The notes below the pieces were generated by a model, which was not told the DNA's origin, did not search any database, and saw only the letters and a list, made by a program, of their open reading frames with translations. The position numbers and the translations under genes were made by a program. A DNA stretch of 64,000 bases from Oceanihabitans sp. 2_MG-2023. Its GTDB lineage: Bacteria; Bacteroidota; Bacteroidia; Flavobacteriales; Flavobacteriaceae. Shown here in pieces: positions 27,631 through 30,706 of this stretch. The stretch covers positions 558,001 to 622,000 of the forward strand of contig NZ_JAUOQT010000001.1 in NCBI RefSeq assembly GCF_030547245.1, read 5' to 3'. How positions within the stretch are numbered: the first letter of the stretch is position 1; every line of letters begins with the position of its first letter.

Positions 27631-29529
27631 ATGAGCGATGCTTTAAAACATGAATGTGGAATTGCACACATTAGACTTTTAAAACCATTAGAATATTACA
27701 AGAAAAAGTATGGTACCGCATTTTACGGCGTGAATAAAATGTACCTTTTAATGGAAAAGCAGCACAATCGTGGACAAGATGGAGCTGGTTTTGCAAGTAT
27801 TAAACTAGACACCAAACCAGGAGAACGTTATATTAGTAGAGTTCGCTCTATTGCACAACAACCAATTCAAGATATTTTTGCGCAAATTAATGAGCGCATT
27901 AACAAAGAACTAACAGAGCATCCAGAATACCAAAACAATGTTGCTTTACAAAAAAGAAACATTCCTTATATAGGAGAAGTTTTATTGGGTCATGTTCGTT
28001 ATGGCACCTTTGGAAAAAACAGTGTAGAAAGTGTACACCCTTTCTTAAGACAAAATAACTGGATGCATAGAAACCTAATTCTTGCGGGTAACTTTAACAT
28101 GACTAATGTTAAAGAGTTATTTAAAAACCTGCTGGACCTTGGGCAACACCCAAAAGAGTATACAGATACCATTACTATAATGGAAAAAATTGGACACTTT
28201 TTAGATGATGCTGTTGCAAAAATTTACAAGAAACTCAAAAAAGAAGGTTACAACAAAAACGAATGCTCTCCGTTAATTGCCGAAAGATTAAACGTGGCTA
28301 AAATATTAAAAAGAGCAGCTAAAAACTGGGATGGTGGTTATGCCATGGCTGGGCTTTTAGGTCATGGAGATTCTTTTGTACTTCGAGATCCTGCTGGAAT
28401 AAGACCAACGTATTATTATCAAGATGATGAAGTGGTAGTTGTAGCTTCAGAAAGACCTGTAATACAAACTGTTTTTAATGTAGATTTTGACGACGTTAAA
28501 GAACTAGAACCAGGACATGCAATTATTACAAAAAAATCTGGAGAAGTTTCTATTCAAAAAATATTAGAACCTTTAGAAAGAAAAGCCTGTTCTTTTGAAC
28601 GTATTTATTTTTCTAGAGGAAGTGACGCTGAAATTTATCAAGAACGCAAAGAGCTAGGCAAATTATTAATGCCTAAAGTTTTAGAAGCAATTAATAACGA
28701 TACTGAAAACTCTGTGTTTTCCTATATCCCCAATACCGCAGAAACTTCCTTCTTTGGAATGATTGAAGCTGTTGAAGAACATCTTAATAAAAAGAAAACA
28801 CAAGCTATTTTAGATGGCGATGGTAAACTCTCCAAAGAACGTGTTATTGAAATTTTATCGGAAAGAACCAGAATTGAAAAAATAGCTATTAAAGATGTGA
28901 AGCTAAGAACTTTTATTACAGAAGATAGTAGTAGAGATGATTTAGTTGCTCATGTATACGACGTCACTTATGGGGTAATAAAACCAACAGATAATTTAGT
29001 GATCATAGATGATAGTATTGTAAGAGGTACCACCTTAAAAAAGAGTATCATTAAAATGATGGATAGACTACATCCTAAAAAAATAGTTGTTGTCTCTTCT
29101 GCTCCTCAAATACGTTTTCCAGATTGCTACGGTATTGACATGGCTAATCTAGAAGGACTAATTGCTTTTAGAGCAATGTTAGCTTTGTTAAAAGAAAACA
29201 ACAAATATCATTTAATTGAGGAAGTATATAAGAAATGTAAAAAACAAGTAGACTTAAATGATTCTGATGTAAAAAACTTTGTTAAAGAATTATACGACCC
29301 TTTTACAGACGATGAAATTTCAAATAAAATTTCGGAACTCTTAAGCGATGAAACAGTAAATGCTGAGGTAAAAATATTATTTCAACCTGTTGCTAATTTA
29401 CATAAAGCCTGTCCTAAAAATTTAGGAGATTGGTATTTTACAGGAAACTATCCAACAGTTGGAGGAAATAGGGTAGTAAATAGAGCTTTTATTAATTTTT
29501 ATGAAGGAAACAAAGAACGTGCTTATTAA
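27631..29529 (+). CDS. Amidophosphoribosyltransferase-like protein (PurF family, long form)
   Basis: A 632-residue protein with the two domains of PurF. The N-terminal Ntn glutaminase would start at Cys9 after removal of MSDALKHE; supporting motifs are QHNRGQDGAGF, GHVRYGT, LAGNFNM and LRDPAGIRPTYYY. The phosphoribosyltransferase domain has the PRPP loop NLVIIDDSIVRGTTLK. It is about 130-160 residues longer than standard PurF, through insertions in the glutaminase part and a C-terminal extension (NLGDWYFTGNYPTVGG). Family members make phosphoribosylamine from PRPP and glutamine. Whether this is the main PurF or a paralog cannot be told here, because no other pur gene apart from purN is near. 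The gene ends before the sRNA cluster. Confidence 0.82.
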   Translation: MSDALKHECGIAHIRLLKPLEYYKKKYGTAFYGVNKMYLLMEKQHNRGQDGAGFASIKLDTKPGERYISRVRSIAQQPIQDIFAQINERINKELTEHPEYQNNVALQKRNIPYIGEVLLGHVRYGTFGKNSVESVHPFLRQNNWMHRNLILAGNFNMTNVKELFKNLLDLGQHPKEYTDTITIMEKIGHFLDDAVAKIYKKLKKEGYNKNECSPLIAERLNVAKILKRAAKNWDGGYAMAGLLGHGDSFVLRDPAGIRPTYYYQDDEVVVVASERPVIQTVFNVDFDDVKELEPGHAIITKKSGEVSIQKILEPLERKACSFERIYFSRGSDAEIYQERKELGKLLMPKVLEAINNDTENSVFSYIPNTAETSFFGMIEAVEEHLNKKKTQAILDGDGKLSKERVIEILSERTRIEKIAIKDVKLRTFITEDSSRDDLVAHVYDVTYGVIKPTDNLVIIDDSIVRGTTLKKSIIKMMDRLHPKKIVVVSSAPQIRFPDCYGIDMANLEGLIAFRAMLALLKENNKYHLIEEVYKKCKKQVDLNDSDVKNFVKELYDPFTDDEISNKISELLSDETVNAEVKILFQPVANLHKACPKNLGDWYFTGNYPTVGGNRVVNRAFINFYEGNKERAY

Positions 29530-29644
29530 TTTGTTTTTTACGGTTTATCCGTATCTACCTTGTTTTGAAACACTTAATCCAAAAAAAAAGCTTTTCATCT
29601 AAAAGATTTTATAAATTCCAATAAATAAAAGTACATTAGTTGTA

Positions 29645-29717
29645 CCATAACATAAGTAGGTTAAGTTCATGGTAGATTTGGGGCAAAAAAGGTGAACTCT
29701 CGTTCACCTTTTTTTTA
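29645..29717 (+). ncRNA. Candidate small RNA, copy 1 of 3
   Basis: The element starts CCATAAC and has the loop ATAAGTAGGTTAA followed by GTTCATGG, so the ends pair in a 7-bp stem with one bulged base. A single-strand TAGATTTGGGGC follows, then a perfect terminator: AAAAAAGGTGAAC, loop TCTC, GTTCACC and a T run to 29717. Upstream, TACATTAG (29632-29639) matches the -7 consensus at all but one fixed position and lies 5 nt before CCATAAC, the same spacing as in copy 2. Together these describe a free-standing ~70-nt RNA with two hairpins. The function is not known. Confidence 0.7.
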
Positions 29718-29825
29718 TTTAATAACATTTCTTTCATATTTCTCTCTAAAACAGACACTTTACCCCTTTAGACTAATATATTAGTCGTTTGTCTAATAAT
29801 TTTCGCATTTACATCCAAGCACACT

Positions 29826-29833
29826 TATATTTG
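29826..29833 (+). promoter_or_regulatory. -7 promoter box of small RNA copy 2
   Basis: A perfect TATATTTG ends 5 nt before the first base of the conserved element, so the predicted transcript begins at or near its CCAT. A weak TTTCG (-33 region) lies about 21 nt upstream. Confidence 0.55.
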
Positions 29834-29838
29834 CTAGA

Positions 29839-29908
29839 CCATAACATAAGTAGGTTAAGTTTATGGTAGATTTGGGGCAAAAAAGGTGAACTCTCGTTCA
29901 CCTTTTTT
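29839..29908 (+). ncRNA. Candidate small RNA, copy 2 of 3
   Basis: Nearly identical to copy 1 across its ~70 nt: the only change up to the terminator stem is GTTTATGG instead of GTTCATGG, at the bulged base of the 5' hairpin. The terminator stem GGTGAAC/GTTCACC (29885-29891 with 29896-29902) and its TCTC loop are the same. Flanking sequence is unrelated to that of copy 1, so the unit boundaries coincide with the predicted RNA. It has the best promoter of the three. Confidence 0.75.
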
Positions 29909-29978
29909 CATTTTATAACCTCAAAAAAAATAAAGTTATATAAAATATTCAAAATACTTTTACGTTATTTGTATATCT

Positions 29979-30050
29979 CCATAACATAAGTAGGTTAAGT
30001 TTATGGTAGATTTGGGACGAAAAAAGGTGAACGCAAGTTCACCTTTTTTT
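29979..30050 (+). ncRNA. Candidate small RNA, copy 3 of 3
   Basis: The same 5' hairpin as copy 2 (CCATAAC ... GTTTATGG), but with GGGACG in the linker and with terminator loop GCAA, a GNRA tetraloop, in place of TCTC; the stem itself is unchanged. TTTG of a possible -7 box (29968-29971) lies 7 nt upstream. The terminator has T tracts on both strands and probably also ends the convergent sodA transcript. Confidence 0.7.
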
Positions 30051-30097: not shown

Positions 30098-30706
30098 TTA
30101 TTTAGCTTCGGCATAACGTCTTTCTACTTCGTTCCAGTTAATTACATTAAAGAAAGCTTCAATATAATCTGGTCTTCTGTTTTGGTAATTTAAATAGTAA
30201 GCATGTTCCCAAACATCTAATCCTAAAATTGGTGTTCCTTCACAAGTAACTCCTGGCATCAATGGATTATCTTGATTTGGTGTAGAACAAACCTCTACTT
30301 TCCCTCCTTTATGCACACATAACCAAGCCCAACCAGAACCAAACTGTGTAGCTGCAGCTTTACTAAAAGCATCTTTAAAAGCATCAACAGATCCATAAGC
30401 TGCTTCAATAGCATCTTTTAAATCTCCAGACAAACGCCCTTTTCCTTCTGGATTCATTACTTCCCAAAATAAAGAATGGTTATAAAAACCACCTCCATTA
30501 TTTCTAACTGCACCATTATTCATATCTAGATTACCAAGAATATCTTCAATAGATTTTCCTTCTAAATCGGTACCTTCAATAGCAGCATTTAATTTTGTTG
30601 TATAACCGTTATGATGTTTTGTGTGGTGAATCTCCATTGTGCGTGCATCAATGTTTGGTTCTAAAGCATCATAAGCATATTTTAATTTCGGTAATTCGAA
30701 AGCCAT
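30098..30706 (-). CDS. sodA: Superoxide dismutase, Mn type
   Basis: A 202-residue cytosolic enzyme that dismutates superoxide. Metal ligands are His27 (EIHHTKHH), His77 (FYNHSLFW), Asp164 and His168 (DVWEHAY). The GGG-x-x-NH at 71-77 and NQDNPLM at 144-150 are the arrangement seen in Mn-dependent enzymes rather than the AAQ form of iron enzymes, so Mn or cambialistic use is likely. A -7 box TAAATTTG is at 30743-30750 on the same strand. The gene is convergent with the small RNA cluster, whose last terminator can serve it. Confidence 0.95.

Follow-up and report, generated by a model that had tools for sequence, protein, structure and literature searches.

The window analyzed here, a 64,000-nucleotide stretch of the genome of Oceanihabitans sp. 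2_MG-2023, contains a cluster of three related units of about 70 nt between two convergent genes, a purF-like gene (27631..29529, plus strand; 126 bits against TIGR01134, under the cut-off of 350 for that model) and a sodA-like gene for an Fe/Mn superoxide dismutase (30098..30706, minus strand), which are the conserved upstream and downstream neighbours, respectively. All three units, identified by sequence, BLAST and predicted fold, lie on the plus strand and consist of a 5' hairpin followed by a linker and an intrinsic terminator. Copy 1 (29645..29716) and copy 2 (29839..29908) carry the type A linker GGGGCA and differ by a single base in the 5' hairpin arm (GTTCATGG/GTTTATGG); 72 bases of copy 2 are identical in five other genomes of the same genus. 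Copy 3 (29979..30050) has the type B linker GGGACGA, which is also found in distant genera, and a terminator loop GCAA in place of TCTC, with the stem kept. In copy 1, the 5' hairpin (29645..29672) carries AAGTAGGTTAA at its apex, which the predicted fold closes with a weak 3-bp UAA/UUA stem; the linker TAGATTTGGGGC (29673..29684) is predicted to be unpaired, and the terminator (29685..29716) is recognizable by sequence and fold, with a stem that covaries over 56 sequences. The apical part and the linker are identified below, by complementarity, as pairing regions 1 and 2. A 5' hairpin is predicted for each of the three copies as well as for the consensus, and the predicted fold of each unit beats all 200 dinucleotide shuffles (z from -3.7 to -4.8).

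A BLAST search of the whole genome with unit 1 (30 contigs, E<=0.001) detected three full copies only, all in the cluster (E 4.9e-32, 2.5e-29 and 2.1e-22), along with a partial, reverse-strand match to the terminator palindrome of copy 3. Such a threefold repetition is far above the chance expectation. Translation of the units was considered, since both type A copies could encode MVDLGQKR, and rejected because copy 3 does not keep the frame.

The two type A copies are preceded, on the same strand, by a direct-repeat promoter element consisting of two TTnnnnC-type boxes with a 20-bp period (29572..29604 for copy 1 and 29766..29798 for copy 2, with sRNA-promoter matrix scores of 11.2 and 14.6) and by a -7-type box of the form TAnnTTnG, conserved at -13..-6 (TACATTAG, 29632..29639, with one mismatch, and TATATTTG, 29826..29833, a perfect match). 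Copy 3 has only a weak, shortened -7-like box, TATTTG (29966..29971, plus strand), with no direct repeats upstream and a matrix score of -21.8. The same arrangement, with TTnnnnC boxes at -71 and -51 (20 bp apart) and the TAnnTTnG box at -13, is seen across 102 distinct type A upstream regions, and in a leave-one-genome-out test the matrix score exceeded the 95th percentile of shuffles for 83 of the 103 type A copies examined versus 2 of 15 type B copies. Type B copies of distant genera (linker GGGACGA or GGGATGA) have promoters without direct repeats (L007, L026, L027, L029, L030, L076, L078, L079, L080, L084). Type B might be an old paralogue under separate control, and copy 3 is itself probably one such ancient paralogue, with a separate promoter inferred from sequence.

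A preliminary description, made from the sequence alone, had reported the three units with their shared parts, the restriction of the difference between copies 1 and 2 to the bulged base of the 5' hairpin, the loop change in copy 3 with retention of the stem, and the -7 box 5 nt ahead of copies 1 and 2, and all these observations held. The linker change in copy 3 had gone unmentioned, and the statement that the DNA between the units is unrelated is not quite correct: copies 1 and 2 have the direct-repeat element in common, at about -73 to -41. A terminator repeat without a conserved 5' hairpin, named there as the outcome that would refute a small RNA, is contradicted by comparative analysis, in which the hairpin core and the linker are the most conserved part. 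In an alignment of 56 sequences these two parts are nearly invariant and the terminator drifts while keeping its stem. Two-sided changes were detected at 9 of the 21 consensus pairs, eight of the nine in the terminator, and some terminator pairs are also broken, partly through stem shifts in the alignment. The invariance of the hairpin core and linker fits pairing regions, and it leaves the 5' hairpin too constant to be checked by covariation (for which R-scape was not used).

The sRNA is a feature of the Flavobacteriaceae. In a first DNA search of 60 relatives, matches were found in 29, all among the 37 genomes of the same family, and in none of the 23 genomes from other families. One of these matches (L038, G021:C72) stems from a copy that has diverged: it keeps the common linker and terminator but differs in its hairpin loop. 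The other 28 genomes yielded 69 copies, and a model was built from an alignment of the 56 distinct sequences among them. Applied to genomes sampled evenly across the phylum, it matches 37 of 46 Flavobacteriaceae genomes, 28 of them at least twice; one weak case (G384, E 4.2e-4) was not confirmed by the core search. The 3 matches among the 346 other genomes of the phylum (E 2e-4 to 9e-4) are close to what chance would give in a sample of that size. An exact-core scan of named genomes yielded at least 118 stretches, and for the 80 loci listed the names are those of what we take to be Flavobacteriaceae genera, or unnamed or uncultured Flavobacteriaceae, Flavobacteriia or Bacteroidetes/Bacteroidota, without a taxonomy look-up. 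A phage origin of the sRNA was rejected after no match to the exact core was found in viral contigs.

Loci outside the present genome contain one to six copies. Because purF and/or sodA are found at nearly all sRNA loci (29 of 30, 20 of 20 and 76 of 80 in three sets, with both genes present in 23, 20 and 56, respectively), the cluster appears to be inherited at a fixed site. Four loci with an exact core (L089, L098, L140 and L150) show neither gene in the fetched stretch and could be second loci. No published description of this RNA was found in the openly licensed literature searched, supplements excluded. The units likely represent an undescribed, family-wide group of RNAs, for which a regulatory role is inferred.

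Partial reverse-strand matches to the sRNA away from the cluster led to a second conserved locus, located between scoB and, in several genomes, a gene for an ABC-transporter ATPase. Here an ORF for 29-46 aa has a leader made up of the complement of the sRNA, present once to three times and extending into the start codon. This leader, with the AUG, is complementary to both the apical part of the hairpin, AAGUAGGUUAA, and the linker, AGAUUUGGG: it contains box 1, CCCAAATC, and box 2, AACCTACTTATG, matching the two parts of the sRNA, and box 2 reaches the AUG. In the present genome, the small ORF encodes MNTDLFFLKLFKKVRSTFKFIASLLYLTKKVFML and lies about 200 kb from the cluster, beyond the window. 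Translation of the ORF under purifying selection is supported by a pS of 0.31 versus a pN of 0.037 (five genomes of the same genus, 22 codons). The predicted proteins are basic (median net charge +4) and weakly amphipathic (22 of 32 at p<0.1), and no Pfam or NCBIfam match was found for the three members scanned. A synteny search downstream of scoB in 29 further genomes identified the small ORF in 18; in one of the genomes examined (G004), it is located 984 nt after scoB. In each of the nine Flavobacterium genomes and in two others (G360 and G026), the 1.5 kb that follow scoB gave no such ORF, and since these 11 genomes had been chosen as sRNA carriers, the small ORF cannot be the sole target. 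In one genome that is 90% complete (G011, L043), the ORF is apparently frameshifted with the leader sites present, reflecting either a sequencing error or decay.

The complementarity is well beyond random expectation in most leaders. When the sRNA of each genome was paired with its own leader, using only cores from copies containing GATTTGGG, 27 of 32 leaders reached p<=0.01 against 300 dinucleotide shuffles; with the leaders of G004 (p 0.003, dinucleotide shuffles) and G408 (p 0.003, mononucleotide shuffles), the total is 29 of 34. The duplex ends one or two bases beyond the AUG in 20 of the 32, with a predicted dG of -47.8 in the present genome, and the real sRNA outperforms all 100 shuffled sRNAs in 27 of the 32. 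The leaders that miss the threshold are those of G447 (0.12), G027 (0.063), G036 (0.027), G431 (0.017) and G006 (0.29), the last a member of the same genus in which the ORF is kept and the complementarity is lost.

Several biases have to be considered. Six of the first 16 leaders were discovered through complementarity, and homologous leaders are not independent. In the set found by scoB synteny, 13 of 18 leaders reach p<=0.01 (one genome of this set, G033, was also seen via complementarity). In a control family, an unrelated 70-aa protein, only 1 of 27 leaders does so, namely one that had been chosen by complementarity, and 4 of 27 reach p<=0.05, the genome of origin included (0.030); in this control, a generic Flavobacterium core stood in for any sRNA not retrieved from the genome concerned. 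Duplex prediction disregards accessibility, and the predicted fold leaves pairing region 1 only partly open. When linkers were swapped, 19 of 20 leaders of the TAG type favoured the TAG sRNA and only 7 of 12 of the TAAG type favoured the TAAG sRNA, so that linker covariation in the mRNA leaders is one-sided. With these qualifications, the units satisfy one criterion for trans-acting base-pairing sRNAs as a general kind, since their conserved complementarity to an mRNA from another locus holds in 29 of 34 leaders; an independent transcript is inferred only from the conserved -7 box and the terminator.

The sRNA-promoter matrix was also applied to 16 regions ahead of the small ORF: 14 of them score above dinucleotide shuffles at p<=0.014, and the remaining two give 0.080 and 0.086. 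The genomes are related, and the combined p-value should not be taken at face value. By a count made by hand, the motif at the small ORF lies about one helical turn nearer to the -7 box than at the sRNAs. Because the sRNA and its target carry the same direct-repeat motif, a single activator is suggested for both, and control of most type A copies and the small ORF by one common, inferred activator appears to be the simplest reading, likely but indirect. LytTR-like proteins are one family that can be considered as a candidate.

In some genera the linker contains an additional base. This extra-A type reads GGTAAGATTTGGG and is the only type at 31 of the 80 named loci, including those of Maribacter, Zobellia, Flagellimonas and Eudoraea; 47 loci have TAG only, and two have both. 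The sites found with the extra-A sRNA read CCCAAATCTTACC, with one more T, in a search that was biased, the query having been that sRNA. Another search, of 299 Flavobacteriaceae genomes, used a query that covered the promoter block ahead of one of these sites but not the site itself, and its result is therefore unbiased for complementarity. There were matches in 21 genomes, 20 of which gave loci (G621 was not included). Among the 19 loci besides that of the query, 17 were new and two (G191 and G431) had been seen before. In 18 of the 19, a -7-like box (assigned by eye), an sRNA-complementary stretch and a terminator follow at similar distance, so that the element resembles a separate transcription unit of about 60 nt with its own promoter block; the unit is absent from the remaining locus (L351). 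Against shuffles of the 245-nt region, the complementarity is significant at p<=0.01 in 14 of the 19 and at p<=0.026 in 18. All 19 loci with the unit (the 18 and the query's own) pair better with the extra-A sRNA than with the same sRNA minus the extra A, by 0.6 to 4.7 kcal/mol, and the sRNA type was read directly in only five of these genomes (G007, G024, G032, G191 and G431), always with the extra A. The unit might act as a sponge for the sRNA; both its transcription and its sponge action are inferred. All three elements occur together in G007, which has six copies of the sRNA in addition to the small ORF and a sponge-like unit.

One locus (L337, G534:C9) contains four tandem candidate sponge copies about 200 nt apart. 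Upstream of the sponge units (L336-L350 and L352-L355) lies a conserved block, ACATCAAAA...TTAGCATACAAAA...CTTGACAACT, unlike the direct repeats of the sRNA, which is probably the site of another regulator. Longer transcript-like units with leader-like sites are present in G191 (L254, a tandem pair) and G017 (L264); conceivably, these are duplicated leaders without the ORF and a second kind of decoy. Nothing reached an Rfam gathering score in eight leader and sponge loci scanned.

Several further sites were observed. In the present genome, a 24-nt stretch complementary to the sRNA (92% match; L035, G000:C23:436027-436050) directly follows the stop codon of a gene whose 1232-aa product shows a weak match to a T9SS tail, and precedes a terminator-like hairpin; it could be a 3' UTR sponge or a target. 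Sequence starts complementary to the sRNA, such as CCCCAAATCT(T)ACC, occur at six loci of four genomes (L045, L259, L260, L261, L262 and L263 in G013, G024, G360 and G032), followed in all but L259 by a recurrent hairpin-like element. At L260 this arrangement comes directly after an ORF that by eye resembles a tyrosine recombinase, and the elements may therefore belong to mobile elements. Two candidate targets in Flavobacterium were rejected, the 70-aa protein (p<=0.01 in 1 of 27 homologous leaders) and one with a homologue in only 2 of 29 genomes. The Flavobacterium match CATTAG/CTAATG rests on the single locus L265 and is no more than a possible lead.

Taken together, we propose that the units are trans-acting sRNAs that pair over the start of the small-protein mRNA and block initiation, with a probability of about 0.75. 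The family, structure, synteny, complementarity, coding potential of the target, common motif and sponge-like sequences are computed; transcription, the direction of regulation, the activator and sponge action are inferred. According to this model, a transcript of about 70 nt would be made, with the 5' hairpin, the linker and a Rho-independent terminator, and its apical part and linker would pair jointly with the leader and start codon of the small-protein mRNA. Bacteroidota mRNAs lack Shine-Dalgarno sequences (PMC6847099), so the AUG region itself would have to be covered; the block of initiation is inferred because the duplex does cover this region. The long duplex would perhaps also be exposed to cleavage. 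That regulation is negative is only guessed from where the duplex lies. One activator driving both the sRNA and its target would produce an incoherent feed-forward loop and, in the subset of genera containing Zobellia, with the linker longer by one base, the transcript of about 60 nt would mimic the target and titrate the sRNA. A bolder reading, toward which we lean only slightly, is that these elements constitute an undescribed three-RNA circuit of Flavobacteriaceae, comprising the purF-sodA sRNA, the co-regulated small-protein mRNA and, in some genera, a sponge that coevolves with the sRNA (extra A/extra U).

The preliminary description had suggested three paralogous small RNAs, possibly regulators, with the AGTAGGTTAA loop as the pairing site. 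The former is supported as the best reading, in the absence of transcript data, and the latter is borne out by the comparative evidence, the loop matching, by complementarity, an mRNA leader that is conserved. That description had not recognized the linker as a second pairing region, nor did it include the common promoter motif, the target or the sponge.

Among the alternatives, the strongest is that the small-ORF mRNA is mainly a decoy and that the important targets are other mRNAs, for example, those of secreted surface proteins. This remains possible and is supported by the two to three tandem sites in some leaders (L036, L040 and L041), the sponge-like noncoding units in other genera, the retention of the sRNA without the small ORF at scoB in Flavobacterium, the 3' UTR site in the present genome, and a 19-nt perfect complement of the sRNA immediately ahead of the start codon (ATG) for a large protein that by eye looks secreted (L044, G015:C21:164362-164380). 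On the other hand, the small ORF is under purifying selection, its start codon is covered by the duplex in most leaders, the two Flavobacterium candidates are not conserved, and no other conserved target was found, albeit without a genome-wide target search. At L044, a direct-repeat-like block is also seen by eye upstream of the site.

A second alternative is a trans-encoded pair akin to type I toxin-antitoxin systems, in which the small protein would be toxic and the RNA would be the antitoxin. The size, charge and weak amphipathicity of the protein, the lack of domain matches and the long complementarity across the start region are compatible with this view; however, the sRNA and the ORF are unlinked, belonging to separate conserved loci, and we consider this explanation, with its hypothetical toxicity, unlikely. 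Finally, a mere repeated read-through terminator for purF and sodA, without function in trans, would fit the strong terminator that ends each unit between convergent genes but is very unlikely given that the hairpin core and linker are more strongly conserved than the terminator, of which only the stem is kept, that the -7 box is conserved ahead of the units, and that it would leave unexplained why the units are complementary to an mRNA from a remote locus.

For the preferred reading, a base-pairing sRNA acting at the start of the small ORF, the family offers a deeply conserved sRNA, a matching target locus, a predicted opposing RNA and a common promoter motif. The absence of Shine-Dalgarno sequences makes sRNA control of initiation in Bacteroidota a subject of general interest, and the carriers include cultured marine bacteria such as Zobellia, so that the circuit is directly testable. 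The analysis also exposes a conserved family of small proteins, of which the three members scanned gave neither Pfam nor NCBIfam matches.

Comparison with known systems does not allow the units to be assigned to FopS, Flavo-1, Rfp18 or type I toxin-antitoxin systems. Flavo-1 (RF01705), whose possible identity with the units the preliminary description had left undecided, is likewise an RNA motif of Flavobacteriaceae, but its covariance model (cut-off 42 bits) has no match at the units, and no Rfam gathering score is reached anywhere in the window. Flavo-1 matches do occur near the sRNA cluster in two Flavobacterium genomes (L068:3975-4055 and L067:5546-5626), without overlapping the units. Rfp18 of Flavobacterium psychrophilum, a structured sRNA like the present one and conserved in Flavobacterium, reportedly pairs with metalloprotease mRNAs via its third stem-loop (PMC9723704), whereas the present unit has two stem-loops (the sequences were not compared). 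With respect to type I toxin-antitoxin systems, complementarity of the RNA to the mRNA of a small protein is met; an RNA gene adjoining or overlapping the toxin gene is not, the two being about 200 kb apart in the genome of origin (G000). Such genes are usually, albeit not universally, adjacent or overlapping.

The FopS/GibS sRNAs of Bacteroides (RF04319) are multicopy RNAs of about 65-70 nt that have a 3' terminator and pair near start codons, and FopS reportedly blocks initiation by covering the AUG region (PMC11697453). The present units are similar in having multiple paralogous copies per genome, three in the genome of origin, and share with the FopS Rfam model the stretch UUCAUGGU..AGAUUU..GG. 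Relaxed Rfam scans of the units gave only terminator look-alikes and a weak FopS alignment, whose 18-22 bits (E 0.16-3) fall short of the gathering threshold of 56; the best score, 22.0 bits (E 0.6), is on the minus strand, and the plus strand gives 18.4-20.4 bits. This weak similarity could reflect either chance or distant kinship. FopS pairs via a 5' region that precedes a single terminator-like stem (PMC11697453 and the Rfam model), whereas the units have a 5' hairpin and a linker; the criterion of an unpaired 5' pairing region is not met in the three copies or the consensus. Furthermore, FopS is encoded by 14 scattered copies with mainly SusC targets (PMC11697453), in contrast to the purF-sodA cluster and the small-ORF target described here, and involves RbpB, for which there are no binding data with the present sRNAs. 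The Qrr (PMC11697453) and LhrC sRNAs belong to other phyla and, to our knowledge, have no sequence in common with the present family (none was compared). These sibling sRNAs are likewise encoded in several near-identical copies, are under common control and act by pairing.
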